Source: Flavobacteriales bacterium (lineage in GTDB: Bacteria > Bacteroidota > Bacteroidia > Flavobacteriales_E > Vicingaceae). Taken from it: DNA of 64,000 nt. The notes under the pieces are model-generated. The model searched no databases, was not told where the DNA came from, and saw only the letters and a list, made by a program, of their open reading frames with translations. Position 1 is the first letter of the stretch, and each line of letters starts with the position of its first letter. The stretch is taken from positions 62,001 through 126,000 of the forward strand of contig NVUQ01000002.1 of NCBI GenBank assembly GCA_002401955.1. Reading direction: 5' to 3'. Made by a program: the position numbers and the translations under genes. Positions 322-52,881 of the stretch are shown here, piece by piece.

Positions 322-1149
322 ATGCATAAGCATCTTTCTTATCGTAATTACAGTAAATACACTGTAAGAAACTATGTAAAAGAGATCAATCATCTTTGCT
401 GCTTTTACCAATGTAGCCCGAAAACTATTAGTGAAGAGCAAATACAGAATTACCTTTATCATCTTGTTAAAACAAAGGCGTTTGGACCAAATAAGATAAC
501 ACTTGCAATGGCAAGTTTCACTTACTTTTATCATAACATCGTTGGAGCACCCGAAAAAGTAAAACAATTAAGAAGCCCAAGAATTCCAGATAGAGTACCA
601 TTTATCCTTGCACCACAACAAGTTTATCAATTTATTGAATCGCTTACGAAGTATAGAGATAAGATAATAATCCAGTTGCTATATTCTACAGGGATTAGAG
701 TGGGGGAGTGCGTAAATTTAAAAAGACAAGACTTAAACACAGACAGGATGGTAATAAGAATTGTTAAAGGTAAAGGACAAAAAGATCGTTATGTTCCGTT
801 GAGTCCAATGATGTTAGAACAATTGGAGCTGTATTACACAGCGTATAATCCTGAAGATTATATTTTCACTGGTAGAAAAAAAGGAGAACCAATTTGCAGA
901 GCTACAGTTAATCGTATTATTAGAAATGCTAACTATGTACTAGAAACAAAAGAAACGATAACACCACATACGTTTAGACATTCCTTTGCAACCATGTTAA
1001 CAGAAGAAGGCGAAAGCCTCTATAAAATACAACAGATCTTAGGGCATAAAAGTATTTTATCAACAACACGTTATATCAAAGCTGCCAAAACTGAATTGAA
1101 ATCTTGTGTAAATCCATTAGATAAGGTTTATGAGGATAATTCTATTTAA
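322..1149 (+). CDS. tyrosine-type site-specific recombinase (XerC/D-like)
   Basis: This 275-residue protein has an N-terminal SAM-like core-binding domain (about 5-85) and a C-terminal catalytic domain (about 90-265). The catalytic set is complete: Arg126 (STGIRVGE), Lys149 or Lys151 (KGKGQ), His216 and Arg219 (HTFRH), His242 (LGHKS) and the nucleophile Tyr251. It lacks the extra segment that marks integron IntI enzymes. It most resembles the short recombinases that accompany IS91-type elements in Bacteroidota, but no IS91 transposase is visible here. ATG 322 is the first usable start in frame and places the SAM-like domain normally. Stem-loop repeats lie just upstream, and the stop codon falls inside the left terminal repeat of the structured element. 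Confidence 0.9.
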   Translation: MHKHLSYRNYSKYTVRNYVKEINHLCCFYQCSPKTISEEQIQNYLYHLVKTKAFGPNKITLAMASFTYFYHNIVGAPEKVKQLRSPRIPDRVPFILAPQQVYQFIESLTKYRDKIIIQLLYSTGIRVGECVNLKRQDLNTDRMVIRIVKGKGQKDRYVPLSPMMLEQLELYYTAYNPEDYIFTGRKKGEPICRATVNRIIRNANYVLETKETITPHTFRHSFATMLTEEGESLYKIQQILGHKSILSTTRYIKAAKTELKSCVNPLDKVYEDNSI

Positions 1150-1197
1150 CATAATAATAAAGGTGTTGTGCGTAAGCCCGAAAGAAATGCGGGCCAG

Positions 1198-1215
1198 TCC
1201 CGATAGCTATCGGGA
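1198..1215. repeat. 18-bp perfect palindrome, first copy
   Basis: TCCCGATAGCTATCGGGA is its own reverse complement. It sits in element copy A where copy B has an unrelated short stretch. The same palindrome recurs at 1721-1738, so it behaves as a small dispersed repeat that entered copy A. Confidence 0.85.
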
Positions 1216-1720
1216 GATGTGAATGTACAAATGCGTAAAAACAAATAAAAGGGGCTTGTCCTTTTGTTTGCGGAGCAAACAATTACTTTAGTATTGTTTT
1301 AGCATTTATCAGAGCGCGTGGATAGCATATCTTGAGGCTTTACACAAGGCTCGCTCAAATATCCACTGGATATTTGCCGTAGTTATTTTGCATCAAGGCA
1401 AAAAGAACTAATGAACAAAGCCAGTTTACGTAGTATAGAAAAATACAAGTTAAAGCCTTATTAAGGCAAACGTATTTTTTCGTATACAAGTAAACTACAA
1501 TCATAAAATTTTTTGAGCGCTGGAAAAAGAATTAATTTTTAAAGATGTTGAGCCTTGAGCGGCAATTTTATACTTCGGTTCGTTCCTCACTCAGCACAGG
1601 CGCCATTCCTAATTATAAGGACAAAATGATAAACCTTATAAAAAACAAAGTTCCTGAGAATCGCGTATTTTAAAATTTATGTACGATTGTACATTATACG
1701 AGAATTTTAAGAAGCGTTGG

Positions 1721-1738
1721 TCCCGATAGCTATCGGGA
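1721..1738. repeat. 18-bp perfect palindrome, second copy
   Basis: This is the same palindrome as at 1198-1215, again at a place where copy B of the element lacks it. Finding it twice in one copy of an otherwise shared element suggests insertion or gene-conversion-like spread rather than ancestry. Confidence 0.85.
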
Positions 1739-1920
1739 GTGCGATCTATTTACTTTGCTGCCAAAGAGCAAAGCAAACGAGGCACGAGTGCAGACATAAT
1801 AAACATTATAAGATCTAAACGACTACAAACGATTATATGCTGTAAAGCTGCAATATATGCTATAATACCTTTAAATAACAAAACTATCGTTTTGTCTTAT
1901 AATGTATTGCATTATGTTAC

Positions 1921-2320
1921 TTTGCTTTGGACTTTAAGAATTTATTCTTAAAGGACGGAAAGAAAATTTTATTTAATCAAAAGGCGTAAGTGTTGGAAGT
2001 TTGCGCTTCACTTCAAGCAAACTTTACAACTCTTACAATACCGCTTAAGTAAAGCGATAAATAGGTAAAGTGTAAACACTACAAAAAAGTATAAGAGGTG
2101 TTGTAGCTTTACTTATTTAGATGCTGCGTGAGGGATAGAAGCAAATTACCGTGTAATGCGTATAGCCCGACCTTTAGGACACGCCCTAATAAAATAACTT
2201 TGCCTTAAAATACAACTTACATCATCTCACTTTAGAATATTAATTCTTAAATTGCTGGGCTTATAAAACAACTTACTACATTTAGTAGGGCTCAGAATTA
2301 ACAGTGTTAAAATAGAATAG
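1921..2320. other. hairpin-rich non-coding stretch between element A and the OLD gene
   Basis: I see no credible gene here. The stretch holds a perfect hairpin CTTTAAGAAT/ATTCTTAAAG (1932-1941 with 1944-1953), an AAGTTTGC/GCAAACTT pair near 2010-2035 and a TACTA/TAGTA pair near 2275-2288. It also has a GAGGGATAGAAGC...GCCCGACCTTTAGGACACGCC block (about 2130-2190) that resembles non-coding repeats I associate with Flavobacteria. Copy B has no counterpart of this stretch. It is probably more mobile-element debris. Confidence 0.5.
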
Positions 2321-4120
2321 ATGAAATTAGTAGATATTGAAATAGAAGACTACAAGTCTATTAAAAAATTAGATTGGAAATTATCTAATGGTTTGACCTG
2401 TCTAGTTGGACAAAATGAAAGTGGGAAATCTAATATAATCGAAATTTTAGACTATTTAAAATTTGCAAATTTAGATGAATTATCTACAGAAATTCACACA
2501 AATAGGTCAAGTGATAGGTATGTTGAGCAAGAGCTGCCTTTTATTAAATTAAAGTTCAATTTAAATAATGTAAGTAGAAAACTTTTAAGGGAACAACTTG
2601 ATCCTTATAACGCAGATAAAGATGTTCTTAATGAAATTAAGGACCTCACTCATTTTACAATACAGACAACACCCAACGAAAAATTAGATGAAAAAATTTA
2701 TTTTGAAGATAAAACTCATTCTTATGGCATAGATTATTTTGTGCCAAACGCAGGTCACTTGCCTGCGGCCCTTGAAATAATTGAAAACATCCAAACAAAA
2801 GTTGTGAAATTAGAAGAAGACTATATTGATCAATTTGAATTAACATTAGATCAATTAATTGCTAATTCAGTACCTGATTCTGGATTGGTTAAACTTATGA
2901 AATTAGCAGGTGTATCTGATTTCACTAAGCTTAGTAAGGATCCTAAACGATTAGCTATATATTTAAAAAGAATTAGTAAAAATCTAAACACGAAATTTAC
3001 TAGAAAGTATTACTCACAAGATGATAGTGTCCAGCTTAATGTTGTGCATCATTCAGGAAAAGTTTCATTAGAAATTTTTGATAATACTGATACAGAGTAT
3101 GATATTCACGAAAGAAGCGATGGATTTAAATACTTTTTCGGACTACTGATTGAAGTAGCATCATTGAGTAACGATTCTTCAGATATAATCTTTTTACTAG
3201 ATGAACCAGGAAGTAAATTACATCCTAGTGGACAAAGAGATCTACTTAAGTATTTAGAAGAATTATCTGAAAAATTCAGAGTAATTTATACAACTCATTC
3301 ACCTTTTTTGATAAATCGTTTATATCCTAACCGAGTCAAAGTAATTGAGAGGAGTAAAGCACAAGGCACAACTTTTAAACACAAAGGTTTTTCAAAAAAC
3401 TGGCATCCTATGAGAAGTGCTTTGGGGCTTAACCTAAGTGATAGTTTTTATTATAGTGAGAAGGCGTTAATTGTTGAAGGACCTGAAGATATTATATATT
3501 TGGGTTCACTTATTAATTTATTTAATGATAAAGAAGAGATAAAAGTTAATACTGATATTTTCTCCTTTATTGATGCAGGTGGCGAAGGAAACTTACCTGC
3601 AATGATACAGATCATGATCGAAGAGGAAAGACCTATAATGGTCTTAATGGATTCTGACTCAGAAAAAACCTACAATAAAATTGAAAAGAAAAGGAAAACA
3701 CTTAAGAGCGGCCAACTAGTTCTTAATCAAATAAATGATTTTAAAAACGATAGTATTTCTATAGAAGACTTATTACCCAAAGATTTATTAAAAAAAGCAA
3801 TTAATGCTTATGCTAAAGAATTAGTTGAAGATCATAGTCTTATCTTAGTCGAAGGAAAAAGCAGTGAATTAAAAGGAAAATTATCTGAAAATTCCGTTTA
3901 TAAGAATAGTATTGCACCTTTTATTAAAGATAATTTCACTAATCCTTCTAAAGAAAAAAGTGATTGGGAAAAAGAAAAAGTTCCAATCTCCAAAGTTGGT
4001 ATTGCTAGGCATTTTGAAAAAGAACTTTTCAAAGAGGATTATTTAGTATTGAAAACAGACCTGGTAAATTGTTTGAAGTTAGTGAAAACTGTAATTCAAA
4101 AGTTAAAGCTAAAAGATTAA
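2321..4120 (+). CDS. OLD-family ATP-dependent nuclease (AAA ATPase plus TOPRIM)
   Basis: This 599-residue protein has an SMC/RecF-like ATPase domain and a C-terminal TOPRIM nuclease domain. The Walker A loop is GQNESGKSN (30-38). Walker B is FLLDEPG (291-297), and an H-loop His lies in YTTHSPF (about 326). The TOPRIM part shows the acidic LIVEGPED (Glu386), a glycine-rich AGGEGN (419-424) and DSDS (Asp444, Asp446). This order matches class 1 OLD proteins. The next gene is a Crp-type regulator rather than a UvrD-like helicase, so it is not a Gabija pair. OLD proteins act against phage in known cases; defence is inferred here from family and from the element-bounded setting. The 3' end stops 14 bp before the next start. 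Confidence 0.9.
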   Translation: MKLVDIEIEDYKSIKKLDWKLSNGLTCLVGQNESGKSNIIEILDYLKFANLDELSTEIHTNRSSDRYVEQELPFIKLKFNLNNVSRKLLREQLDPYNADKDVLNEIKDLTHFTIQTTPNEKLDEKIYFEDKTHSYGIDYFVPNAGHLPAALEIIENIQTKVVKLEEDYIDQFELTLDQLIANSVPDSGLVKLMKLAGVSDFTKLSKDPKRLAIYLKRISKNLNTKFTRKYYSQDDSVQLNVVHHSGKVSLEIFDNTDTEYDIHERSDGFKYFFGLLIEVASLSNDSSDIIFLLDEPGSKLHPSGQRDLLKYLEELSEKFRVIYTTHSPFLINRLYPNRVKVIERSKAQGTTFKHKGFSKNWHPMRSALGLNLSDSFYYSEKALIVEGPEDIIYLGSLINLFNDKEEIKVNTDIFSFIDAGGEGNLPAMIQIMIEEERPIMVLMDSDSEKTYNKIEKKRKTLKSGQLVLNQINDFKNDSISIEDLLPKDLLKKAINAYAKELVEDHSLILVEGKSSELKGKLSENSVYKNSIAPFIKDNFTNPSKEKSDWEKEKVPISKVGIARHFEKELFKEDYLVLKTDLVNCLKLVKTVIQKLKLKD

Positions 4121-4134
4121 TAAAAGAGGCAGAG

Positions 4135-4716
4135 ATGTACCAAAAATTAAGAACATCATTCGAGCAATACACAAAGCTTACAGATGAAGAATTTGATTCG
4201 ATCAAAAATGAAATGACATTAAAGTCCTTTAACAAAGGAGATTACTTTGTAAAGAGTGGTCAATTATGTAAGCACATAGGCTTTTTAGTTAACGGTATTT
4301 CAAGAGTTTACTATTTGGAAGACGGAAAAGAAATTACCTCATATTTTAATTATCAGGATAGAAACCCTTTAGTTTCTTCATTTGTTAGCTTTTTAACCAA
4401 TGAACCATCTTATGAAAACATTCATATTATTGAGGATGCAGAAATGCTCATTATATCAAAAGAAAGCTTAGATAAGCTCTATGAGAGTAGCAACAATATT
4501 CAAAAATTAGGAAGGTTGATGGCTGAACATAACTATGTTCTTTCAATGGAAAGGATATATTCTTTACAACATCAAAGTGCACAGCAACGCTATGAACTAC
4601 TTCTTAAAACTTATCCGAATTTACTAAATACAATTCCTCACCATTATATTGCTTCTTATCTTGGGGTTACTCCAGAATCGATGAGTAGAATAAGAAAAAG
4701 CATAGCAGGTAGTTAA
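4135..4716 (+). CDS. Crp/Fnr-family transcriptional regulator
   Basis: The protein has 193 residues from ATG 4135. A longer frame opens at 4069, but it would overlap the OLD gene and adds residues unlike the family. An N-terminal cyclic-nucleotide-binding-like beta barrel (about 10-120) includes the segment NKGDYFVKSG. A C-terminal helix-turn-helix ends in YLGVTPESMSRIRK, the form usual in short Bacteroidota Crp-like regulators. The purine-rich AGAGGCAGAG just upstream may serve as a ribosome site. It follows the OLD gene by 14 bp and so could be co-transcribed with it. The ligand is unknown. Confidence 0.88.
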   Translation: MYQKLRTSFEQYTKLTDEEFDSIKNEMTLKSFNKGDYFVKSGQLCKHIGFLVNGISRVYYLEDGKEITSYFNYQDRNPLVSSFVSFLTNEPSYENIHIIEDAEMLIISKESLDKLYESSNNIQKLGRLMAEHNYVLSMERIYSLQHQSAQQRYELLLKTYPNLLNTIPHHYIASYLGVTPESMSRIRKSIAGS

Positions 4717-4784
4717 TCTTACCATACATCAATGCACACCATTAAATAGACCCATACATTTGTTTGTATAATTAATACAGGCAA

Positions 4785-5417
4785 ATGGTAGATACATATT
4801 TAAATAAAGAGTGGTTTAACCTTAGCTCAAAGTATTGTGACTATCATAAGTCAGAATGCATCTTAAATGAGCTTAAACTAGCCTATAATAACCACAAAAG
4901 AAGTTATCATAACCTAACGCATATTGAAAACATGCTCGTTCTGGCGGATAAAGAAAAACAGCATTTAATTGATTATGATGCCATAAGGTTTGCTATTTGG
5001 TTTCATGATGCTGTTTACCGAGTTACTAATTCTAATAACGAGGTAAAAAGTGCAGAAATGGCTCGTTGTACTTTAATAGAAATGGGGGTACCTACCGAAA
5101 CTAGAAAAATAACAATTCAGTTGATATTGGCTAGTTCAAATCACACATCAAAAGAGGAGGGAAGTAACTATGATTTTAACTTCTTCTTAGATGCAGATTT
5201 ATGGATTTTAGGACAACCATGGAATGACTATACCACATACGCCAAAAACATTAGAAAAGAATATTCCATTTACCCTAACACCATTTACAACAAAGGAAGA
5301 AAGAAGGTTTTAAATAGCTACTTACAAAGATCAATAATATACAAAACGAATTGGTTTAGGAAGAATTATGAACAACAAGCAAGAAAAAATATAACCAAAG
5401 AAATAGAACAATTATAA
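4785..5417 (+). CDS. predicted metal-dependent HD-superfamily phosphohydrolase
   Basis: The 210-residue protein carries YHNLTHIENML (His42, His46) and FAIWFHDAVY (His74, Asp75), the metal-binding signature of the small HD family often labelled predicted metal-dependent phosphohydrolase. A later acidic stretch (FFLDADLWILG) supplies a further conserved Asp. It starts 68 bp after the Crp-type gene and is followed 8 bp later by an unknown gene, which suggests one transcript. The substrate is not known for this family, so no specific reaction can be assigned. Confidence 0.82.
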   Translation: MVDTYLNKEWFNLSSKYCDYHKSECILNELKLAYNNHKRSYHNLTHIENMLVLADKEKQHLIDYDAIRFAIWFHDAVYRVTNSNNEVKSAEMARCTLIEMGVPTETRKITIQLILASSNHTSKEEGSNYDFNFFLDADLWILGQPWNDYTTYAKNIRKEYSIYPNTIYNKGRKKVLNSYLQRSIIYKTNWFRKNYEQQARKNITKEIEQL

Positions 5418-5425
5418 GGTGTAAA

Positions 5426-6037
5426 ATGAACAACTGGACTGAATATATAGAAAGCCTATTTATCAATATAGAATTTGACGATGTGCAGGTAACCGAAACA
5501 GATTTTTACCATTACACAATCTTTAGGAAAAATGGTACATACATTTCATTTGATCTCATAGAAGATCAAATGAAAATTAGGAAAGTAGAATGTGGTAAAT
5601 ATTCAGTTCTCAGCGATAACCATTCAGATTACGAAATAAGCAGTGTAAAAGGAGTGTTTAATAAAACAAAACCACATTATATCGATTACCTGCAAACTTC
5701 ATGGGATGGTGAATGTGGGAATAACTATGAACTCGACTTTGGCACCGAAAACAAAACTATATTAAATCATTTTTTACAAATCCCTATACATATTGGATGG
5801 ATAGAGGAATATTACAAGTACAGAGATGATTATTATAAAATTGAACTAAAGGTTAATGTTCCTTGCGATTACCTAAAATACAAAATTATTCTATTGCATT
5901 TTGTTGAGCAGGATATACCGCTTTTAGGGGATAGAACGAATAGACTAATTAGAGCATGGTTTGCGGATCTGAAGATTAATTCTAACAATAGAAAAATTGA
6001 AAAAGAAATAGTAGAAGCTATAGAGTCATTAAGATAA
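5426..6037 (+). CDS. hypothetical protein, 203 residues
   Basis: I do not recognise this protein. It is soluble, with no signal peptide or membrane segment, and rich in aromatic and charged residues. A short AAGGTGTAAA precedes ATG 5426, and the gap from the HD gene is 8 bp, so it is probably co-transcribed. The next gene begins 27 bp downstream. Small soluble orphans beside defence-like genes in an element-bounded island may be immunity or accessory proteins, but nothing in the residues shows this. Confidence 0.7.
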   Translation: MNNWTEYIESLFINIEFDDVQVTETDFYHYTIFRKNGTYISFDLIEDQMKIRKVECGKYSVLSDNHSDYEISSVKGVFNKTKPHYIDYLQTSWDGECGNNYELDFGTENKTILNHFLQIPIHIGWIEEYYKYRDDYYKIELKVNVPCDYLKYKIILLHFVEQDIPLLGDRTNRLIRAWFADLKINSNNRKIEKEIVEAIESLR

Positions 6038-6064
6038 AATAATACGAACTAAAACAATTATAAA

Positions 6065-6424
6065 ATGGGACTATTCGATAAATTATTCAAGAAAACAGAA
6101 CAACCTGAAGATCGTTTTAAAGTAACTATTAACGATGAATTCATTATGGTTGAACATCCACAACGAAAAACAGAAAAAGTAATATGGAAAAATATAACTG
6201 AAATTAGAATAATAACCACTGACGAAGGCCCTTGGATGCCTGATGTATGGTTGGCTCTATTCGGAAAAGAAGAAGGTGATGGTTGCCTAATACCGCAAGG
6301 GGCTGAAGGATGGGAACAAGTTTATAATATAGTATCAGAATATGAAGGGTTTGATTTTGAGCAATTTATTAATTCAATGGGATGTGCTGAAAACGAACAA
6401 TTCCTTGTATGGAGAAAAGAATGA
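6065..6424 (+). CDS. small hypothetical protein, 119 residues (possible PH-like fold)
   Basis: It begins MGLFDKLF, followed by a predicted beta-rich region with conserved-looking blocks: WKNITEIRI, TDEGPWMPDVW, CLIPQGAEGW and YEGFDFEQF. Proteins with similar blocks occur widely in Bacteroidota as uncharacterised stand-alone genes. There is no signal peptide. It sits at the end of the plus-strand run 2321-6424 and is convergent with the VanW-like gene. A role as an immunity-type protein is possible but unproven. Confidence 0.7.
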   Translation: MGLFDKLFKKTEQPEDRFKVTINDEFIMVEHPQRKTEKVIWKNITEIRIITTDEGPWMPDVWLALFGKEEGDGCLIPQGAEGWEQVYNIVSEYEGFDFEQFINSMGCAENEQFLVWRKE

Positions 6425-6474
6425 GACTTAAATATCAAAGTGAATTCCATTTTTTGCTAACTTAATTAGCAATG

Positions 6475-7329
6475 TTACGGATTAATAGGCTCTGAAAGTA
6501 ACGGTTCATACATCATTATAGCATGATTTTCTGTTACTAATTCTTCTTTAACTTCTTTCCCTGATATTTTATCAGATACTTTCCTTTTGATACGATTATG
6601 GCGAGTATATCCACCCCAAGGAGCGTGATGAATTAAATGATCAGATTCGAATACTTCATATTGATGCCTATTTTCTTTTTTTGAATTGAACTCTCCATTC
6701 AAGTATGTGTCAGACAGCCAAAGGTTCAATTGGAAGTCACTATCAGTTTCATTTTTAAATTGAAGATCTATATAATTAAATGAGATTGTAGCACCACTAC
6801 CAAATGGTAATGTTCGGTTTGTATCAGGAAAAACATCAAAACTATGTCTCCATCTTTCCTTCACTGTAAGAGGTGTATGCAATAGCATCCAATAAATTAA
6901 ATTACCAAGTTGACATAACCCACCACCATAACCAGATTTTACTTGGCCACTTTCGAGTACCATTCCTTTTTTGTAACCGTTTCTTTTTGATGGATTACCA
7001 ATAAGTTTCCATAAAGAAAATGTTTCTCCAGGTTTAATGACAATCCCATCTATATTACTAATGGCCATTTTCAGGTTATGAATCTTATCGTACTGAAGAA
7101 CCATGTCAACATCTTTAAGTTGTCTAAGAAGTATTGATTCATGACTAAAAAAATGGAAAGGAAGTTTTTGTTTTGACCTATAGCTAGAATAGGTCTCTTT
7201 TCCAGATAATTGGAGAATAGTACGCTTTGTGATGTAAAATCTTTTCCCAAGATAACGTCTCAATTTACTTCTTTTCTTTGGTTTTGATATGTTTCTTGGA
7301 GAGATTATAATTTTGTAGATTTGTTTCAA
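6475..7329 (-). CDS. VanW-family protein
   Basis: The core matches the VanW family closely: KPGETFSLWKLIGNP, SGYGGGLCQLGNLIYW, ERWRHSFDVFPD and LPFGSGATISFNY. VanW occurs in some vancomycin-resistance clusters and in many unrelated genomes; its biochemical role is unknown. The start is uncertain. The frame remains open to 7461, with ATGs at 7461 and 7386, but both lie inside the divergent lipoprotein gene beginning at 7340. A TTG at 7329 gives 284 residues, the usual family length, and avoids overlap. Its promoter would then lie inside the neighbouring gene. A VanX-like dipeptidase is encoded nearby on the other strand. Confidence 0.82.
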   Translation of the reverse strand: MKQIYKIIISPRNISKPKKRSKLRRYLGKRFYITKRTILQLSGKETYSSYRSKQKLPFHFFSHESILLRQLKDVDMVLQYDKIHNLKMAISNIDGIVIKPGETFSLWKLIGNPSKRNGYKKGMVLESGQVKSGYGGGLCQLGNLIYWMLLHTPLTVKERWRHSFDVFPDTNRTLPFGSGATISFNYIDLQFKNETDSDFQLNLWLSDTYLNGEFNSKKENRHQYEVFESDHLIHHAPWGGYTRHNRIKRKVSDKISGKEVKEELVTENHAIMMYEPLLSEPINP

Positions 7330-7339
7330 ATGTAAAACT

Positions 7340-8836
7340 ATGAAAAAGCTAGTATACACTCTATTATTCTTTGTTTCCATTTTCATACTCGAATCTTGTG
7401 GGTCTGAAATAGAACAAGAAACAAGTAAAGAAACTCCTAAAGAACAAAAAGTTACGGACAATGAGGTTAATACTTTTGAAGAAGAGATTAAACCTATTAT
7501 TGAAGGAGTAATCCGAATCGATGGGTTTTATGCCACATCAACATTAATTCCACATAGGGATTATGGAGTAGGAAATCTTTTTGATGATAATGAAGATACT
7601 TATTGGTCTGCAATGGAAGGAGCTGGTAAAGATGAAGGTATTATGCTCTATTTTGATTCTTATGTTCATATTGAAAAAATTTTACTTAAGTATCCTAATT
7701 TAAATAATACAGGGGAGATTCAACAAATTGCAATTTATGGAGATGGTAAAGGTTTTGGAGGTTATAGTTCTGATGATATTTATGTAAGGGATGTACTAAA
7801 GTCAATCTTTATTAAGATCAATGATATTGATTTTAAAGGAAATAAGAATGCTATTTGTGCAATCAGTGAATTGCAATTTATCGATTCTCTAGGGCAACAA
7901 ATACCAGTTCAGATACCAACTATTGTTAACGGAGAAATAACTGCGACATCCACACTAAAACCCAATCAAGCTTATAATGCAGCGAATGTTTTTGATTCTA
8001 AAAAGGAAATTTCATGGGCTGAAGGATCAAAGGGAAAAGGTGAAAACGAGACGCTAACAATTAATTTAGATGAAGAAGTGACGATTACAGAATTAAAGAT
8101 CTGGAATGGGTTTCAACGATCATCAAAACATTACCAAGCTAATGCACGAGTTAAATCTTTCACTTTTGGACAACTCGGAGATGTTTATGAAGTTAAAGAT
8201 CAAATTACACCTCAAATTATAAAATTAAAGACCCCAGTTAAGGGTAAAGAATTTATATTAAAAGTTATAGATGTATATGGCGGAGACGAATATGAAGATT
8301 TAGTGATCAGTGAAATAAAACTCTATGATAATGACGGTTGGATTTGTGTGAGGACTCCTTTTGAAGAAGAAATAAAGAAGAAATTAATAAGTGAAATAGA
8401 AGATAATATTGCAATGTCTAATGTTATAGATCGTAATCTTAACTATCAGAATAAGAAAGAGAAACAAACTGGGAAAATGGAATCAACACACTATTATACA
8501 AAATCAATGGTGTTAAGATCAAACCATACATTTGTGCTTTATGAAAGTGAGTCAGAGGAGTGGGTTGATTATACAAATGTAGAAACGGATAAAGACGATC
8601 CTGATTATGGATATGACAATAAAGAGACTATTTCTGAAGGTAATTGGGAATTACTTGAAATGAATGATGGCTCAGCAAAAGTTAGAATATTTGGAAGACG
8701 CTATAGTCCAACAACAGATAAAGAACTTTATAAAGGTGATATAACATCCGATAACCTTAAAATATTTCAAGACTATCTAACCATTACTAAGAATTCAATT
8801 AAGGGAAAAAGATTTATTGATGAATTTACTTATTAA
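7340..8836 (+). CDS. lipoprotein with tandem discoidin-like (NADase-type glycan-binding) domains
   Basis: This 498-residue protein has a lipoprotein signal, MKKLVYTLLFFVSIFILESC, with the lipid-attachment Cys at about residue 20. Two galactose-binding-like modules follow, at about 55-175 and 195-330. Each begins with ATSTL and an N(V/L)FD motif and ends in an (I/L)SE(I/L) strand. The second fits the NADase-type glycan-binding domain well (SWAEGSKGKGENETLTI, KVIDVYGG). The last 150 residues are unrecognised. It probably sits in the envelope and binds a carbohydrate. Its end overlaps the next gene by 17 bp, which indicates an operon with the dipeptidase and the GT-C-like gene. Confidence 0.78.
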   Translation: MKKLVYTLLFFVSIFILESCGSEIEQETSKETPKEQKVTDNEVNTFEEEIKPIIEGVIRIDGFYATSTLIPHRDYGVGNLFDDNEDTYWSAMEGAGKDEGIMLYFDSYVHIEKILLKYPNLNNTGEIQQIAIYGDGKGFGGYSSDDIYVRDVLKSIFIKINDIDFKGNKNAICAISELQFIDSLGQQIPVQIPTIVNGEITATSTLKPNQAYNAANVFDSKKEISWAEGSKGKGENETLTINLDEEVTITELKIWNGFQRSSKHYQANARVKSFTFGQLGDVYEVKDQITPQIIKLKTPVKGKEFILKVIDVYGGDEYEDLVISEIKLYDNDGWICVRTPFEEEIKKKLISEIEDNIAMSNVIDRNLNYQNKKEKQTGKMESTHYYTKSMVLRSNHTFVLYESESEEWVDYTNVETDKDDPDYGYDNKETISEGNWELLEMNDGSAKVRIFGRRYSPTTDKELYKGDITSDNLKIFQDYLTITKNSIKGKRFIDEFTY

Positions 8837-9524
8837 GCTCTTTAGCATATCGATTCTATTTACTGCTTGTGAAAATCACTCGCAAATAGAAGTATTAAAC
8901 AACGAAGTTGTGGAAACTCCTTCTATAATTAATGAAGAAGAGGTCTTTACTGAAGTGAAAGTCGATACTAAATCTTGGAATGATACAGACTTTGTTAATA
9001 TTCTTGAATTGAGTGATCAATTTGTCCTTGACATGAAGTATGCTACTACAGATAACTTCATTGGTGAAAAAGTATATGACTGCCCAGACTGTTATCTAAG
9101 GTATGCTGTTATTCAATCTTTAATTATTGCTAATAATGATTTTATAGATAATGGAGTTCGGATTAAATTTTTTGATTGTTATAGACCATTAGATATACAA
9201 AAGAGAATGTGGGAGATATTGCCAGATGGCAGGTATGTGGCTAATCCGAATAAATCAGGATCAATACATAATAGAGGAGGAGCAGTAGATATAACACTTG
9301 TAGATTCAACTGGTAAAGAATTAGATATGGGAACTTCATTTGATCATTTTGGTAAAGAAGCTCATCACGACTATGAAGTACTAAATGACACAATTAAGAA
9401 GAATAGAAATCTATTGAAAGAGGTTATGGAAAAAAACGGTTTTAAATCGTTGAGAACAGAATGGTGGCATTATTCATATCAATCACATTATAACCTTTCT
9501 AATTCACCAATTAAATGCGAATAA
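8820..9524 (+). CDS. D-alanyl-D-alanine dipeptidase lipoprotein (VanX/DdpX family, M15D)
   Basis: The 234-residue product from ATG 8820 has a lipoprotein signal with Cys17 (LFTACENH). The M15D metal-binding and catalytic set is complete: SIHNRGGAVD gives His150 and Asp157, EWWH gives Glu214 and His217, and CYRP gives the substrate-binding Arg122. The family hydrolyses D-Ala-D-Ala. In Bacteroidota such lipidated members probably serve peptidoglycan recycling or turnover in the periplasm rather than vancomycin resistance. TTG 8817 directly precedes the ATG and is less likely. The gene overlaps the preceding lipoprotein gene by 17 bp and the next gene by 10 bp. Confidence 0.9.
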   Translation: MNLLIKLFSISILFTACENHSQIEVLNNEVVETPSIINEEEVFTEVKVDTKSWNDTDFVNILELSDQFVLDMKYATTDNFIGEKVYDCPDCYLRYAVIQSLIIANNDFIDNGVRIKFFDCYRPLDIQKRMWEILPDGRYVANPNKSGSIHNRGGAVDITLVDSTGKELDMGTSFDHFGKEAHHDYEVLNDTIKKNRNLLKEVMEKNGFKSLRTEWWHYSYQSHYNLSNSPIKCE

Positions 9525-10969
9525 GGAATTATATTGAATATTCGTTATATCCTTTATTCTTTATCATTTCAGTTTTAATAAGGTGGGCTTCTTTAACTCA
9601 AACCAAATTCGCAAACGGATGGGATAGTTATTTTTACTTGGTTCAAGTAAAATCTTTATTTGAGGAGGGAGCAATGCATACTCCAAATATTACTATCGTT
9701 TACCCCTTGCTATATGCATTTAATCTAGGAATAGATGATTACATTATTAGTTATAAGGTCTTATCGGTTTTATTTTCAGGTTTATTTATACTAGGTGTAT
9801 ATCGTTTAGGATTATTGTGGTCTAAAAACCTTTTACTTACCATATCTGTTTCGCTCTATCTTCTTTTTAGTCCACATTTAACTTACTTTACCTCGCAGTA
9901 TTTGAAGAATCTTATAGGGATGGTTTTTCTTGTTTGGTCGTTAACTTATGTCAAAAAAAATACAATTAAACATGTTTTGCTACTCATATTAAACATCTTT
10001 GGACATCGGCTAACATTTATTTTATCTCTAATTTTTACTATCACTTACTTTAATGAAAAAAAACTCTTAAAAACGATATTACCTTTATTCTTGTCTTTTA
10101 TAACCTTACTTGGTGTAGGTTATTTTATACCGGGAATAATGAGTTTTGCTGATCTGTCTAGGTTTTCTGGTGCTTTTACCACATCTTTTCATTTTTCACC
10201 AATTACATTTTTACAAGAATTTGGTGAAGAGTTGGTTGTGAAGGGGTGGAAGTATGAAATTATTTTTGATTGCTTACTAGTTTTAGGTACGATCACATTA
10301 GTAGCATTACAAGTTATAAAAAAGCAGTTAGATTCGATTTTATTGGCATTCCTAATTGTTATGATAGTTCTATTACTCCCTTTTTTGAGTTGGGATTTAA
10401 ACAGTTTGTCATTTAGATTTTTTCTTGTATTCCCATTATTGACTCCTATAGCTATATATAGAGTTAAGGGATTGTTGATTCAAAAAGTTTTAAGTATTAT
10501 TTTAATACCTTCTTCACTAATATTGGCTTTTGGTTGCGTAAATTCATATCAGCCTGACAAACATGATCCAAACTATAGCAAATATGCATACATGTCTAAT
10601 CAGATAGTTAATTCTAATAAGAATATTGAATTATTGATTGTTCACAAGTCATTTGCAGAGATTTTCACCTATACTACTGGAATAGATGGAATGCCATGGT
10701 TGCCAGAATATAAAATAGATAAAAATCGATTATGGAGAGTTGCTAAAGGAGTAGGTGTACAGGAAATAGAATATTTTATTGGACAACAAAAGCAGGAACA
10801 GATTCAATCTTTAGGAATAGACTATATTCTCATTAGGGAAGATCTTTGGCAAGCATTCATTGTAGAGCTAGAACAAAACTCAGAAAAAGAATTCTTAAGT
10901 CAATTAGAAACTTGGGAAAATCCTTATAAAATACGACCATTATATCTGTTAAAAGATAAAAGGAAATAG
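9515..10969 (+). CDS. polytopic membrane protein, GT-C glycosyltransferase-like
   Basis: The 484-residue protein has about ten hydrophobic helices up to residue ~350, then a soluble tail of ~130 residues. The first loop carries GWDSYFYLVQVKSL, an acidic motif placed as in GT-C lipid-linked sugar transferases. The architecture (helical bundle plus C-terminal soluble domain) also fits that fold. Donor and acceptor cannot be told. It overlaps the dipeptidase gene by 10 bp, so the three genes 7340-10969 form one operon with an envelope theme. Element copy B starts 4 bp after its stop codon. Confidence 0.65.
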   Translation: MRIRNYIEYSLYPLFFIISVLIRWASLTQTKFANGWDSYFYLVQVKSLFEEGAMHTPNITIVYPLLYAFNLGIDDYIISYKVLSVLFSGLFILGVYRLGLLWSKNLLLTISVSLYLLFSPHLTYFTSQYLKNLIGMVFLVWSLTYVKKNTIKHVLLLILNIFGHRLTFILSLIFTITYFNEKKLLKTILPLFLSFITLLGVGYFIPGIMSFADLSRFSGAFTTSFHFSPITFLQEFGEELVVKGWKYEIIFDCLLVLGTITLVALQVIKKQLDSILLAFLIVMIVLLLPFLSWDLNSLSFRFFLVFPLLTPIAIYRVKGLLIQKVLSIILIPSSLILAFGCVNSYQPDKHDPNYSKYAYMSNQIVNSNKNIELLIVHKSFAEIFTYTTGIDGMPWLPEYKIDKNRLWRVAKGVGVQEIEYFIGQQKQEQIQSLGIDYILIREDLWQAFIVELEQNSEKEFLSQLETWENPYKIRPLYLLKDKRK

Positions 10970-10973
10970 CTTT

Positions 10974-11756
10974 CTATTTAACATAATAATGGTGTTGTGC
11001 GTAAGCCCGAAAGAAATGCGGGCCAGCGTTTGGGGTGAATGGACAAATGCGTAAAAACAAAAAAAAAGCTTGTCCTTTTGGCCCGTTTTTCACGGGGCAA
11101 TTACTTTTGTATTGTTTTAGCATTTGTACAGAGCGCGTGGAGAGCATAGGCTTATATGTCCACAGGACATCTAACGCTATCTTGATTTTTTGGTTCTTTT
11201 GCATCAAGGCAAAAAGAACATATAAACAAAGCCAGTTTGCGCAGTATAGAAAAATACGAAATGAAGCCTTATTAAGGCAAACGTATTTTTTCGTATACAA
11301 GTAAAACTACAATCATAAAATTTTTGAGCGCAGGAAAAAGAATTAATTATTAAAGTATATGAGCCATTGTGCGGCAATTTAACATAATGACTAATTATAA
11401 GGACAAAAGGATAAACCTTATAAAAAAATCCTAATCGCTGAGCAACGAGTTTACGAGTTCATGAGTTCCCCCTAAAATAATAAGCCACGAATAAACGAAG
11501 TATACGAGTTCACGAACACCCAAAAAAAATAATAAACAGTGAGTAATCGCGTATTTTATTTTTTCTGTACAATTATACATTCTACGAGAATTTTAAAAGA
11601 GCGATGGATTGTGTGAGCTATTTACTTTGCTGCCAAAGAGCAAAGCAAGCGAAGAATGATCGCAGACATAATGTACATTATAAGTACGAAACGCTTAAAT
11701 AAGCCTTAAATAACAAAACTATCGTTTTGTCTTATAATTAATATTATGTTAAATAG
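10974..11756 (+). mobile_element. structured non-coding element, copy B (intact, 15-bp terminal inverted repeats)
   Basis: The ends CTATTTAACATAATA (10974-10988) and TATTATGTTAAATAG (11742-11756) are perfect 15-bp inverted repeats. The interior aligns with copy A at 1142-1920. No long credible gene is present; frames at 10974-11304 on both strands are not protein-like and shift against copy A. Paired arms replace those of copy A: TTGGCCCG/CGGGGCAA (11078-11085 with 11093-11100) and ATGTCC/GGACAT (11157-11162 with 11166-11171). B carries an extra ~85 bp with ACGAGTT direct repeats near 11450-11530 and an internal TTTAACATAATG near 11388 that repeats the terminal sequence. I see no clear target-site duplication. 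Confidence 0.85.
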
Positions 11757-11774: not shown

Positions 11775-12164
11775 TTATATAGGCTTTAACCACTCCAATG
11801 CCTCTTCTATAGATTGAAAAACTTTAGTTGGTTTTTTACGCTTTACTATCTTAATATAAAATTTAAGTAATAAACGTTGCGATAAACTATTAATAACATA
11901 AGCAATGGCAATTAAATCAGGCGAACGTTCTGCAGCTTTAATTCTGGCCTCACTAGAAATGGAAACGAATTTTCCATATTGCGTAATCACTTTCATGGGT
12001 TTTGCATAAGGCAAATCATTATAAGCCTTTTCTATAATTAAAACATCATCTTCCTCTATTATACATTTGTCTTTATAAAAGATGAGTAAAATATTTTCCT
12101 CGAGAATGCTAAAAACAAACTTCTCATGCTCGCATAAGATATTTCCAAGTTCTGGAGATGACAT
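11775..12164 (-). CDS. SpoIIAA/STAS-like protein
   Basis: This 129-residue soluble protein belongs to a small family with four members in the window (also 12353-12688, 32735-33157 and 33388-33807). The shared layout is an N-terminal beta hairpin, a central block (KPMKVITQYGKF in this copy), an (A/S)EAR-type segment followed by SPDLIAIAYVINSL, a helix QRLL(L/I)KFY and a final KPTKVFQSIEEALEWL. This fits the SpoIIAA/STAS-like fold used in Bacteroidota proteins of about 120-140 residues. No function is established. It ends 18 bp from the right end of element B. Confidence 0.7.
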   Translation of the reverse strand: MSSPELGNILCEHEKFVFSILEENILLIFYKDKCIIEEDDVLIIEKAYNDLPYAKPMKVITQYGKFVSISSEARIKAAERSPDLIAIAYVINSLSQRLLLKFYIKIVKRKKPTKVFQSIEEALEWLKPI

Positions 12165-12314
12165 AAAGCAAATATAAAAAAATGTGAATAAGTGAAAAAA
12201 CGATACGGTTTATATTTTATTATCAAAGGCACTTAATAATAGATTAAACCTTTTAAAATAATGGTAAATGAAATTTTATGGTCAAATAATTCTAATTATT
12301 CAAACCTAAAAGTG

Positions 12315-12343
12315 TTATACAAAAAAAGTTGTTGGGTGTTTTA
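12315..12343. repeat. short dispersed repeat (pairs with 51796-51824)
   Basis: This intergenic stretch contains GTTGTTGGGTGTTTT next to TTATACAAAAAAA. Its reverse complement nearly matches 51796-51824, which has CAAAACACCCAACAA followed by TTTTTGTATAA. Both copies lie outside genes. It is probably a small dispersed repeat of this genome. Confidence 0.5.
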
Positions 12344-12352
12344 TAATTGATA

Positions 12353-12688
12353 CTATAATTCATCTAACCAATCAAGAGCTTCAGGAACAGTTTCAAATAC
12401 TTTGGTAGGTTTATCTCTCTTCCACATTTTAACGTAAAAACGAATAAATAATCGTTGAGCTAATCCATGTATTACATAAGCAACGCCATCTAAATCAGGT
12501 GAATGTTCTGCGGCAAATTTTCTACAATCAGAACTCATCGTACTGTAACGACCTAAATGTTGTAAAACTTTGCGTGGTTTAGGATCTAATAAATCAAATT
12601 GAACCTGTAACTCTTTAATATCTTCAATTTCTAGCACTATTCCATCACTATAAATAACATGCAAAACGCCATTATCTAAAATTCTCAT
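12353..12688 (-). CDS. SpoIIAA/STAS-like protein, paralogue of 11775-12164
   Basis: The core GRYSTMSSDCRKFAAEHSPDLDGVAYVIHGLAQRLFIRFYVK and KPTKVFETVPEALDWL tail match the neighbouring paralogue closely. An open frame extends upstream to 12868, but the only ATG that avoids the divergent TruC-like gene is at 12688, giving 111 residues with the whole conserved core. A TTG at 12739 would add 17 residues but falls at the predicted transcription start. A TAnnTTTG promoter box lies at 12752-12745. Function unknown. Confidence 0.68.
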   Translation of the reverse strand: MRILDNGVLHVIYSDGIVLEIEDIKELQVQFDLLDPKPRKVLQHLGRYSTMSSDCRKFAAEHSPDLDGVAYVIHGLAQRLFIRFYVKMWKRDKPTKVFETVPEALDWLDEL

Positions 12689-12744
12689 TTCAGAATTTGT
12701 GTTATAAATAACCACTTCTATGTCATCAGATACCTGCAACTTAA

Positions 12745-12752
12745 CAAATATA
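12745..12752 (-). promoter_or_regulatory. predicted -7 promoter box (TATATTTG)
   Basis: On the minus strand TATATTTG matches the Bacteroidota -7 consensus TAnnTTTG. Transcription would begin near 12740 and leave a leader of about 50 bases before ATG 12688. This supports the shorter start chosen for the STAS-like gene. Confidence 0.5.
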
Positions 12753-12769
12753 ACTATTATTGTAATTAA

Positions 12770-13492
12770 ATGAATACCTCTACACAACCTTACGTAAAAA
12801 GTATAGAAATTGTTTTTGAAGACGAATTTCTTGTTGCAGTAAACAAACCAAACAACTTTATTATACACGAATCACATTATGCACGTAATATTAGAGAAAC
12901 TACCCTTATCCAATTTTTAGAAAATCAATTAGCTTATAAAGTCTATCCTGTTCATCGGTTAGATCGTAAAACCTCTGGAATTATACTTTTCTCAAAAAAC
13001 AAACAACACATCAGTCAATTTCAGGATCTATTTACCAACAACACTATTAAAAAGACCTATTATGCAATTGTTAGAGGTTTTAGTAAAGAAACGGGTATTA
13101 TCGATTCTCCAGTTAAAAATGATGATACTGGTGTTTATAAAGATGCGTTAACCAATTACCAAACAGTTAACCAAGTTGAATTAGATATTCCAGTTCATCC
13201 TTATGATAATTCACGCTATAGCTTAATTAAATTAATGCCTCAAACAGGGCGTATGCATCAATTGCGTAAGCACATGAATAAAATTAATCACCCCATTGTT
13301 GGTGATTATAAATATGGAGATCGCTTTCATAATAGAATGTTTGAAACCGAATTTAAGTGTGACTATATGTTTTTACATGCTTACAATATTCAATTTACTC
13401 ACCCTTTTACAAAAGAGAAACTAGTGTTAATCGCTAAATTTCCTTCCGATTGGAATAAGCTTTTCAAAGAATTTAATTGGAGCTTTAAATGA
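12770..13492 (+). CDS. truC: RluA-family pseudouridine synthase, TruC-like
   Basis: The 240-residue protein contains the catalytic HRLDRKTSG with Asp65, the early AVNKPN motif and LMPQTGRMHQLRKHM. Length and blocks follow E. coli TruC, which makes pseudouridine 65 in tRNA; there is no S4 domain, unlike most RluA/RluD proteins. The exact target here is inferred by resemblance. The next gene overlaps its stop by 4 bp (ATGA), so it is co-expressed with an S4-domain RNA-binding protein, which may act on the same or related RNA. Confidence 0.85.
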   Translation: MNTSTQPYVKSIEIVFEDEFLVAVNKPNNFIIHESHYARNIRETTLIQFLENQLAYKVYPVHRLDRKTSGIILFSKNKQHISQFQDLFTNNTIKKTYYAIVRGFSKETGIIDSPVKNDDTGVYKDALTNYQTVNQVELDIPVHPYDNSRYSLIKLMPQTGRMHQLRKHMNKINHPIVGDYKYGDRFHNRMFETEFKCDYMFLHAYNIQFTHPFTKEKLVLIAKFPSDWNKLFKEFNWSFK

Positions 13493-13854
13493 GGTTAGAT
13501 AAATTTATATGGACCACTCGCCTATTTAAAACGCGTTCTATTGCTAGTAAATCATGCCTTGCAGAAAAAGTAAAGCTTAATGAAGCCTTTGCTAAACCGA
13601 GCAAAACTGTTTCTATTGGTGATGTCGTTTCTATTAAAGTTATTCCTATTTGGAAAACCTATAAAGTGATAGACATCCCTAAATCTCGTGTTGGAGCAAA
13701 ATTAGTTTCTAACTACCTTTTAGAAACTACTCCTGAAGAAGATATTGCCCAGTTAAAGCAAATTCAGGAAGTTAATCGTCAAAATAAGTTTTCAGGAATT
13801 AAAGGTCGCCCCACTAAAAAAGTGAGGAGAGACTTAGATGATTTATTGGACTAA
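13489..13854 (+). CDS. S4-domain RNA-binding protein (Hsp15-like)
   Basis: The 121-residue protein opens with MRLDKFIWTTRLFKTRS, the start of an S4 RNA-binding domain (about 1-60), then has a basic tail with KGRPTKKVRRDL. The layout matches Hsp15/HslR, which binds free 50S subunits carrying nascent chains in E. coli. It is coupled to the TruC-like gene by a 4-bp overlap. It is convergent with the AraC-type gene with only 2 bp between the two stop codons. Confidence 0.85.
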   Translation: MRLDKFIWTTRLFKTRSIASKSCLAEKVKLNEAFAKPSKTVSIGDVVSIKVIPIWKTYKVIDIPKSRVGAKLVSNYLLETTPEEDIAQLKQIQEVNRQNKFSGIKGRPTKKVRRDLDDLLD

Positions 13855-35843: not shown

Positions 35844-35851
35844 TACATTTG
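35844..35851 (+). promoter_or_regulatory. predicted promoter box of the B12 operon (TACATTTG)
   Basis: TACATTTG fits TAnnTTTG and would start transcription near 35857, just before the riboswitch fold. Confidence 0.6.
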
Positions 35852-35860
35852 CACTATTAT

Positions 35861-36010
35861 TGGTTGCCGAATTACTTGGCATTAATAGGGAATGAGGTGT
35901 AATTCCTCAACTGTGCCCGCAGCTGTAAGCTCTGCAAGTTTTTACAATAAGTCACTGACTAAACCTCGGGAAGACGTAAAAATATGGAGTAAGTCAGAAG
36001 ACCTGCCATT
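35861..36010 (+). promoter_or_regulatory. cobalamin riboswitch
   Basis: The sequence holds the B12-box core GCCCGCAGCTGTAAGC (about 35917-35932). It is preceded by AATAGGGAAT and a CCTCAACTGT segment and followed by the closing AAGTCAGAAGACCTGCC (about 35991-36007). The order and spacing fit the cobalamin riboswitch family. Downstream, CTCGA/TCGAG (about 36017-36030) and other short stems before the start codon may form the expression platform. It should repress the five genes that follow when adenosylcobalamin or a similar cobalamin is plentiful. The exact ends are approximate. Confidence 0.93.
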
Positions 36011-36141
36011 AATATCTCGAGTAATCGAGAAAAGCTTTCGGGGTTAAAGGCGAAGTAAATCTTCACTTTATATCTTTTAATGAAACGACTTTAATCGTTT
36101 CTGAATTAATTTATTGTTTAACCTCATTTAAAACTAAAGTG

Positions 36142-51731: not shown

Positions 51732-51747
51732 GAATTTATATAAACAC

Positions 51748-51780
51748 AAAAAAGGGTCTTCAAATTGAAGACCCTTTTTT
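51748..51780 (+). terminator. rho-independent terminator of the subtilase gene
   Basis: AAAAAAGGGTCTTCAA (51748-51763) pairs perfectly with TTGAAGACCCTTTTTT (51765-51780), giving a strong stem with a T run. Confidence 0.92.
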
Positions 51781-52109
51781 ATACCAATTTAATTTCAAAA
51801 CACCCAACAATGGTTTTTGTATAATGCCGATAGATAATCAAAGCCAGAGAATGAGAGTAACGAAATTATAGGGCATTTTGATTACAAATCGGTATTAGAA
51901 CACTTTACATCGTGTATTTATTAACGTTTATTTTTCATTTAAGATTTAATTCTAGAATTAAACTCTTTAGAGCTAACCTCAGAGGTGCTTTAGATATCAA
52001 ATTTTTACTATTAAGATTATTTGCTTAGTCCCTAAGAAATGAATGTAATCCAAAAATATTAGTTAAAGAGTTTTGTCTAAAAAGGTTCCCATATAAAGTT
52101 CAATTTAAA
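51781..52109. other. non-coding stretch after the subtilase terminator
   Basis: I see no gene here. Near 51796-51824 lies the partner of the short dispersed repeat at 12315-12343. The motif CCGATAGATAATCAAAGCC and the words CAAAATGCC/GGCATT near 51826-51881 may be remains of another repeat. Confidence 0.45.
51796..51824. repeat. short dispersed repeat (pairs with 12315-12343)
   Basis: CAAAACACCCAACAA followed by TTTTTGTATAA is the near reverse complement of the intergenic sequence at 12315-12343. Both copies lie outside genes. Confidence 0.5.
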
Positions 52110-52265
52110 TTATGATACAAAGTAACCCCCATAAAAATAGAGTTCTTCTTGTGGCCAACCTGTTCCGACTCCTAATTTTTGTCCAGAAGTTACAGTAAGC
52201 CTTGCTGAAGTTTGACTAATCCATTGTCCATAACTGAATATATTTAATGTAAAACTAGCAAACAA
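52110..52265 (-). pseudogene. orphan C-terminal coding remnant
   Basis: On the minus strand this 51-codon frame is open and ends in TAA. It reads like a beta-rich protein tail, with IFSYGQWISQTSARLTV and GVGTGWPQEEL. An in-frame stop lies three codons upstream of TTG 52263-52265, and no good start exists. It begins just after the methyltransferase stop, so it is probably the leftover 3' end of a deleted gene. A short real gene with a TTG start is the alternative. Confidence 0.4.
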
Positions 52266-52266
52266 T

Positions 52267-52881
52267 CTAGTTAGTTAGGATCTTTTTATTAAGATTATCT
52301 GCTTTAAGATGATAAATTGCTTGCTTAAAGAAAAATAATATTCGATTATACTTACTGTCAATTAGTTGATAATTAAATTTTAAAAAAGTATCCTTCCATA
52401 AAGTATCATTTTTATTCGTTCTTGGGCAAGGGGAATAACCTAAATTTACAACGGAATCTGTAACTAATGTTAAATATTTCTGAAACTTATTGTTGTAAAT
52501 ATCTTCATTAATAATAATTCTTTTTGCAACTCTTCCTACCTCCTTTAATATTTCTTCAGGATTTTCTGTATGGTGTAAAACAGAAAGCAATAAGGCTACA
52601 TCAAATTTTTTATCTTCAAAAGGCATCCTACTTCCATTATAAACGATTGGTTTTACAGTAGAATCGAACTCTTGACTAGCTATGTCTAAGGGTATTACTT
52701 TGTATCCTAGTTGCATAAGTTCCCATGAAACTAAACCATTTCCTGAACCAACATCTAAAATAGTATCACCCTCCTCAAGAAATTCTAAAAAAGGAGAAAT
52801 CTTATTTTTAACCCATTTCTTTCCCCATTTCTTAAAATAAATTTTCTTTAAAAATGTTTTGTTTAAAATATATAGTATCAT
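52267..52881 (-). CDS. class I SAM-dependent methyltransferase
   Basis: The 204-residue protein has a SAM-binding motif I ILDVGSGNGLVSWEL (about 42-56), an acidic loop after strand 2 (VIPLDIAS) and the motif FDVALLLSVLHHTENPEEIL, typical of Methyltransf_11-type enzymes. The C-terminal third is basic and unassigned. It is isolated between gene remnants, and the substrate is unknown. Confidence 0.85.
   Translation of the reverse strand: MILYILNKTFLKKIYFKKWGKKWVKNKISPFLEFLEEGDTILDVGSGNGLVSWELMQLGYKVIPLDIASQEFDSTVKPIVYNGSRMPFEDKKFDVALLLSVLHHTENPEEILKEVGRVAKRIIINEDIYNNKFQKYLTLVTDSVVNLGYSPCPRTNKNDTLWKDTFLKFNYQLIDSKYNRILFFFKQAIYHLKADNLNKKILTN

Follow-up and report, generated by a model that had tools for sequence, protein, structure and literature searches.

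Candidate Xer-exploiting gene modules stacked at the dif site of a Flavobacteriales genome, with a long and structured module end

Integron attC sites fold as single strands, and integron cassettes are arranged in directional arrays. CTXphi, an integrative mobile element exploiting Xer recombination (IMEX), also integrates as a single strand: its inverted sites attP1 (12-bp centre) and attP2 (5-7 bp), which are 90 bp apart, fold into a usable site, and in the duplex form neither attP site is suitable, according to the accessible part of that source (PMC4246890). In Bacteroidetes, the nearest published case is that of the Bacteroidetes microvirus proviruses (BMV) at dif-like sites, as far as the accessible text of PMC3091885 extends. 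Here we describe a locus in a 64,000-nt window (the whole stretch of DNA analysed, on contig NVUQ01000002.1, hereafter C67) of a draft Flavobacteriales genome. The locus contains a conserved unit composed of two parts, namely block1 (1142-1911) and block2 (1912-2235). Positions are those of the window, on the + strand unless stated; all results were obtained by sequence comparison and computed folds, and the statements on arrays, Xer recombination and RNA are computational. We estimate at somewhat better than even, i.e. about 0.55, the probability that Xer-exploiting modules are stacked here at dif and that their block1 end folds as single-stranded DNA.

A preliminary description had noted two copies of an element of ~780 bp, and both are present on the + strand, copy A at 1142-1920 and copy B at 10974-11756. 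They share 79% identity over positions 1-407 of copy B, plus further aligned pieces. The perfect 15-bp inverted repeats described at the ends of copy B were also seen, as was the start of each copy beside a stop codon: copy A overlaps the stop of the gene at 322-1149, and copy B begins 4 bp past the stop codon at 10967-10969. The extent and the copy number, however, were incomplete. The conserved unit runs past copy A to ~2235; with the boundary used here, block1 copy A spans 1142-1911 and forms the right end of the left-hand module. Two more copies, oriented like A and B, are located farther upstream on this contig, namely copy C (C67 41184 onward) and copy D (C67 51529 onward). The latter is split by a transposase gene with a DDE_Tnp_1_4 domain (C67 ~51640-53270), which interrupts it within a GATAGCTATC palindrome. 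In this genome, the other long block1 copies are found only upstream on this contig. Block1 copies uncut by contig ends are 639-936 nt in length. A CCCGATAGCTATCGGG palindrome and short GAGTTCACGAACACC-type repeats (1197-1216, 1720-1739, and 11448-11549 in the window) vary in placement among the block1 copies.

The right end of copy B, which was identified by a profile match and by the dif pattern, sits exactly on the chromosomal dif site at 11727-11754 (XerC arm TTGTCTTATAA, spacer TTAATA, and XerD arm TTATGTTAAAT), the single exact match to the pattern in the genome. The dif site of E. coli is GGTGCGCATAATGTATATTATGTTAAAT, i.e. GGTGCGCATAA-TGTATA-TTATGTTAAAT, in the accessible text of PMC3025954, and the window site has similar arms and the same 6-bp spacing. 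The pattern ATAA-N6-TTATGTTAAAT has one exact match in the own genome and, with two mismatches, is no commoner than the control. Of 60 genomes, 31 contain the pattern TATAA-N6-TTATGTTAAAYA, as a single site in 30 and as two sites in genome G036; the reversed-pattern control gave one match overall. Both G036 sites (loci L155 and L156) are without block1. GC skew along the window contig is positive at 24-72 kb and negative at 76-96 kb, and copy B ends at 73.76 kb; the stretches at 8-24 and 96-104 kb are of opposite sign. Elsewhere, the skew switch at dif is clean in G016 and G030, gradual in G066, and noisy in G023, with no switch within 8 kb of dif in the last two. The match to a block1 profile built from 14 copies reaches dif in 21 of the 28 dif loci of the window family (27 genomes; the match in G030 is weak, 3.5e-5), compared with 0 of 6 loci from other families.

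The search of other genomes that the preliminary description had proposed, made with positions 1142-2235 as a query, gave matches in 29 of 149 genomes (E 1e-6, own genome counted), and the profile matched at loci of 24 genomes, some weakly. The relatives include Flagellimonas hymeniacidonis and a metagenome-assembled genome of Croceivirga, in which the element ends on a dif-like site.

Junctions were listed in 22 loci as XerC arm, spacer, and XerD arm, with spacers of 3-10 bp allowed; the expression used included letters special to the broken arm of copy C. The spacer is 9 bp in all 10 junctions with block2 on the right side, as it also is in locus L069, which has block2 and was missed by the expression. 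With the chromosome on the right side it is 6 bp (14/14), although four of these junctions (L144, L146, L148, and L149) come from loci fetched with the 6-bp pattern and 10 are independent. Four further junctions have a 9-10-bp spacer and another right partner. Block1, as recognized by an inverted dif-like site near its right end (I3, described below), is found to the left of both block2 and chromosome junctions, and other sequences are located to the left of block2 in six cases. The window itself contains a dif-like junction of attP type at 1892-1922 (XerC arm, the 9-bp spacer TGTATTGCA, and a partial XerD arm). It is followed by block2 (1912-2235), delimited by the search for relatives, as the left end of the next module. 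A normal dif site is thus present at one end and an altered dif-like site at the other, as in IMEX.

These junctions suggest that the 9-bp spacer travels with block2 and the 6-bp spacer stays with the chromosome, which fits exchange at the XerC-side edge of the spacer. Counting the dif loci without block1, all four products of recombination at that edge appear to be represented. Since the junction pattern fits XerC-side exchange, the segment from one XerC-side point to the next (1903-11737, 9.8 kb) would be one complete module among several stacked ones. Sequence comparison shows block1 as the right-hand end of ~10-kb modules (block2-cargo-block1), all oriented alike and lined up one behind another at dif, on its XerC side.

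Block1 contains two inverted dif-like sites, I2 in the middle and I3 near the right end. I3 and the right-end site are close together and inverted relative to each other, as are the two sites of CTXphi-type elements. I2 of copy B (11377-11410, - strand, 7-bp spacer) has a local alignment score of 48, compared with 32 for the best of 200 shuffles. In 15 of 20 copies I2 scores 40-48, and 200 shuffles never exceeded 36; the exceptions, with a weaker or differently placed best match, are copies A (where I2 is degenerate) and C, G018, G020, and NORP67. I3 was located at 11665-11688 in copy B (- strand, 6-bp spacer) by alignment and DNA fold, and at 1793-1816 in copy A (- strand), where it pairs in the DNA fold with both arms of the right-end site. 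It is present in 18 of 20 aligned copies, the remaining two being cut by contig ends, and the distance to the right site, start to start, is 58-98 nt in 17 copies and 197 nt in G010. A strict pattern running from I3 to the right site occurs in 8 of 395 genomes of the class, i.e. 7 of 15 of the family and 1 of 380 others, with none in the controls. In one genome of another family (L222 of G342, 6.9 Mb), a block1-like match was observed together with this strict pattern. When the 125 nt next to dif on its XerC side were compared with 300 shuffles, an inverted dif-like site outscored at least 295 of them in 18 of the 28 family loci and in one of the six from other families (G050); on the XerD side, the raw scores of inverted sites are 14-25. 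The G050 loci (L139/L157) have this strong inverted site beside dif and no block1 match. The placing of an inverted site beside dif may extend beyond block1.

When 17 + strands were folded as DNA, I3 paired with the XerC arm in all 17 and with the XerD arm in 15, both arms being paired in 15 of 17. Most of these folds have z values between -2.8 and -6.6 against simple shuffles. The variable base of the XerC arm matches the facing I3 base in 18 of 18 cases (6 C-G and 12 T-A). By eye, the dif-like site of Flagellimonas (L059) shows TTATGTAAAATAG, with ATTTTACATAA at three inverted places, and ATTTTACATA is found at two of the three inverted places of Croceivirga (L058); the dif-like sites of both loci were identified by sequence only and are candidate host dif sites.

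Three readings had been offered for the element, namely a large structured RNA, a MITE-like (miniature inverted-repeat transposable element) sequence, and a substrate for strand-specific recombination. The last fits best, because block1 ends on dif and holds inverted dif-like sites. In the mechanism that we propose, block1 and block2 would be joined in a free form, the dif-like site between them having the 9-bp spacer. This site would be a poor substrate as a duplex, by analogy with the widened-centre site of CTXphi that is unusable in that form. In a single strand, I3 would pair with the 9-bp-spacer site, making the Xer arms double-stranded. Either the host XerC/XerD or a module-borne Xer-like recombinase could then join the folded site to dif by a XerC-type exchange (a XerD scoring above its cut-off is encoded in the window genome). 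The dif site would be rebuilt at the outer edge, where the next module could insert, and the 5' domain of block1 would be an additional structured part, acting as single-stranded DNA or RNA. The folded form of joined block1 and block2 is, as modelled, only half convincing. A more extended proposal, which we put forward tentatively and regard as rather unlikely in its entirety, is that dif is the docking site of a cassette system in Flavobacteriales. Multi-gene modules would arrive single-stranded (through natural transformation or conjugation, for example), fold a large structured end bearing several dif-like arms, and be joined by Xer with dif rebuilt, giving a directional array at the terminus with the RNA-like 5' domain as a new part.

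Several observations weigh against stacked modules with a folding end. Both arms pair in only two of the four foldable junctions with a 9-10-bp spacer (copy A and G017a), the XerD arm being unpaired in G016a and G018. In copy C the arm is broken. Part of the spacer is also paired in the folded strands, and the fold of G010 (z of -0.2) is no better than shuffles. The two - strands tried for the right end fold about as stably as the + strands, which gives no sign of a strand choice there. The I2 sites of G005, G006, and G010 read TTTTACATAA beside a TTAAA-form dif, which speaks against co-change, and the relatedness of the copies weakens the 18/18 base match. Seven of the 28 family dif loci are without block1 (both sites of G036, and G025, G028, G034, G013, and G035); the G013 locus comprises ~200 nt of context only, and G035 carries a block1 with a broken right arm 15 kb from dif. 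The module recombinase is rare: at E 1e-60, only 3 of 149 genomes gave a match, one of them being the own genome. No Rep, relaxase, or capsid family was found among the 39 proteins scanned with Pfam, which are part of the open reading frames (one ORC-CDC6-like protein was seen). No block1 match or free form was found in the plasmids, phages, and viral contigs searched, absence from such a collection being weak evidence. In addition, the window genome is a draft and is 83% complete.

Selection on a folded strand, as claimed in the preliminary description, is supported for the 5' half of block1, i.e. 1170-1517 in copy A and 10999-11328 in copy B, where a pseudoknot is present. An alignment of 17 of 20 copies (C, G029b, and G035 were left out because of inserts or likeness) gave a structure with 6 helices, one of them a pseudoknot, and 53 pairs, at 97.1% standard pairing. 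Both-side changes were found in 13 of the 53 pairs, amounting to 66 such cells compared with 24.6 in shuffles (0/500 as high), and the covariation score is 0.239 compared with 0.131 in shuffles (0/500 as high) and at most 0.066 in slid-partner controls. Other statistics are weaker: the number of both-side pairs was equalled in 14 of 500 shuffles and the number of pair types in 496 of 500. The structural alignment proposed earlier as a check thus gives covariation above shuffles, within the limits of these controls: the structure was drawn by RNAalifold from the tested alignment and then edited by hand, the shuffles take no account of relatedness, and most changes separate a few lineages. Of the two examples originally given, the change from TTGTTTGC/GCAAACAA in copy A to TTGGCCCG/CGGGGCAA in copy B is real, and relatives show several other stems at that hairpin tip. 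The change from ATATCC/GGATAT to ATGTCC/GGACAT is located in inserts absent from most of the 17 aligned copies and is therefore weak.

The strand signal in this region also speaks for a different reading, which we consider unlikely, in which block1 would chiefly be the gene of a structured RNA, or a transcript 3' end, beside dif and would merely be carried by the modules. The pairs of the 5' structure include 53 G-U compared with 9 A-C, which favours the + strand. In a wider fold of 18 copies, 26 covarying pairs were obtained on each strand, with energies of -102 (+) and -88 (-) and G-U/A-C numbers of 123/32 and 51/37 on the + and - strands, respectively. Because of the G-U excess and the lower energy, the + strand is likely the folded strand of the block1 5' region. 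Relatives of the 5' domain with the same pseudoknot are moreover dispersed in G082 (9 copies; L240, L241, L236, and others) and G329 (3 copies; L235, L237, and L239), and in the own genome this pseudoknot is the target of six short matches on other contigs. A pattern for the pseudoknot matched 7 of 395 genomes of the class, a number which is not a block1 prevalence because the spacing of the pattern was off by one base; the pattern nevertheless brought the dispersed relatives to light. The large structured RNA of the preliminary description therefore has the strand bias in its favour, but a + strand promoter was present in 1 of 20 copies and none is conserved. No Rfam family matches block1, nor was an Rfam match found in the five dispersed-repeat loci of G082 and G329 that were searched. 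An RNA would also not explain the inverted dif-like sites in the 3' half or the exact end on dif. The 5' domain may act as single-stranded DNA or as RNA, an ambiguity that has also been described for the STAXI motif in the accessible text of PMC2864571.

The gene whose stop overlaps copy A (322-1149, + strand) is the last of the left module and encodes a Xer-like tyrosine recombinase of 275 aa (Pfam PF00589 and PF13495). It is central to another reading, which we hold to be decidedly improbable, namely an integron-like system in which this recombinase acts on block1 as a giant attC, with dif as the docking site. The tandem modules in the same orientation would suit such a system, and the recombinase is kin to XerA and integron integrases, scoring 204 bits against NF040815 (XerA/integron-integrase-like; cut-off 220); its best solved relative is 4a8e, XerC-like by entry name. 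In four loci (L057, L058, L059, and L060), a dif or dif-like site is located 2.6-8 kb downstream of the recombinase gene on the same strand, but in L061 and L062 none was found within the locus. GTTRRRY is the integron-type consensus for arm ends, and the arm ends here resemble it. However, against the integron integrase model TIGR02249 the protein scores 154 bits, below the cut-off of 265, each module carries many genes, and the recombinase gene is absent from most block1 genomes. Short attC sites behind single genes are likewise replaced here by a block1 of 639-936 nt behind multi-gene cargo. Upstream of the window, 3' fragments of the recombinase gene persist in the array at C67 26817-26879 and 53412-53480.

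Plasmid cer sites have accessory sequences that act as decoys or topological filters. Block1 could by analogy be a resident accessory of dif, with movement of modules being rare, a reading that accounts for its presence at 21 of 28 family dif loci and for the Xer-like sites inside it. We regard it as highly doubtful, since block1 also ends internal modules away from dif (copies A and C, G016, and G017) and the seven family dif loci named above lack it. A MITE or other transposon was rejected, because the 15-bp inverted ends are the XerD-arm sequences of dif, the left one being inverted in some lineages only and in the opposite orientation in many relatives, and because the long copies in the own genome are on one contig; a protein-coding block1 was rejected since no frame is common to the copies (the longest open runs of 20 copies differ in frame and place).

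The cargo of the module in the window (2321-10969) includes genes for an OLD/Gabija-like ATPase-TOPRIM protein, a cNMP-binding protein, a VanW protein, an NADase-translocation-type protein, an M15 peptidase, and an EpsG-like protein (weak match), together with unnamed genes. Across the modules of the window genome, type I restriction, Mrr, a methylase with HD-CE and ORC-CDC6-like partners, RhuM/Fic, and OLD/Gabija-like genes were found, and the cargo of G016 includes RND efflux genes. The view that the locus is only a defence island was rejected: PADLOC matches 7 of 10 chosen array proteins of the window genome, but 8 of 10 from relatives are without a match, and G016 carries RND efflux. On the XerD side, genes for an RluA-family pseudouridine synthase and a small protein matching Hsp15 below the cut-off (12770-13854, + strand) form a conserved chromosomal flank common to several genera. 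A search for the chromosomal flank to the left of the arrays turned up no clear candidate. Beside dif, two adjacent genes on the - strand (11775-12868) are alike by eye, the first having a DUF7793 domain. A cobalamin riboswitch (RF00174) is located at 35844-36024.

In several relatives, the far part of block2 contains the Rfam motif Flavo-1 (RF01705), which matches neither block1 nor any part of the window itself. Flavo-1 was found in 38 of 100 genomes, with up to 27 matches in one, and is thus not specific to dif. An expression study gave no real clue to its function, according to the accessible text of PMC9723704.

If the stacked, single-strand-folding modules proposed here are real, Bacteroidota have an integron-like, terminus-anchored gene-capture system that runs on the chromosome-separation site. 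This would explain the gathering there of restriction genes, other defence-like genes, and, in one relative, efflux genes, and the folded single-strand Xer reaction of CTXphi would gain a second home. The unexplained Flavo-1 RNA would also gain one context, and a structured repeat that is dispersed and has no Rfam family would be tied to a concrete locus. In the literature searched on dif in Flavobacteria/Bacteroidetes, on IMEX, and on islands, in which subscription journals are mostly outside coverage, no such arrays are described there.

By its sequence features, i.e. integration at dif (dif pattern, GC skew, and block1 at dif) and a normal and an altered site at opposite ends, the locus appears to work like an IMEX, its movement and its use of the host Xer proteins being putative. 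With CTXphi-type IMEX it shares insertion at dif, XerC-type exchange, and nearby inverted dif-like sites with one wide and one short centre, as given in the accessible part of PMC4246890. It differs in its 9- and 6-bp centres, its large multi-gene cargo, its long structured domain, its phylum, and the lack of phage families among the scanned proteins. The gonococcal genetic island and LME-1, both IMEX, are also islands at dif with a normal dif at one end and an altered dif-like site at the other, but the accessible text on them describes single islands and mentions neither inverted sites nor a structured end (PMC9765430). In the dif/pdif module islands of Acinetobacter, gene modules likewise follow one another in a linear array, with Xer sites as their boundaries; as presented in the accessible part of PMC12907356, they occupy plasmid or additional chromosomal sites, whereas the modules here are at the main dif, in one orientation, and with a conserved end. 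BMV probably insert by a Xer-type reaction at dif-like sites, with an extra dif-like site in three of seven, and are, in the portion of PMC3091885 that is accessible, single-stranded DNA phages of ~6 kb with capsid and replication genes, unlike the modules described here. Integron cassettes resemble the modules in their tandem directional array and single-strand folding sites; here, however, the integrase is below the cut-off, the site is very long, and there are many genes per module. Flavo-1 shares only its position in block2 with this system. Stacked cargo modules combined with a long structured end are what sets this locus apart from known IMEX.

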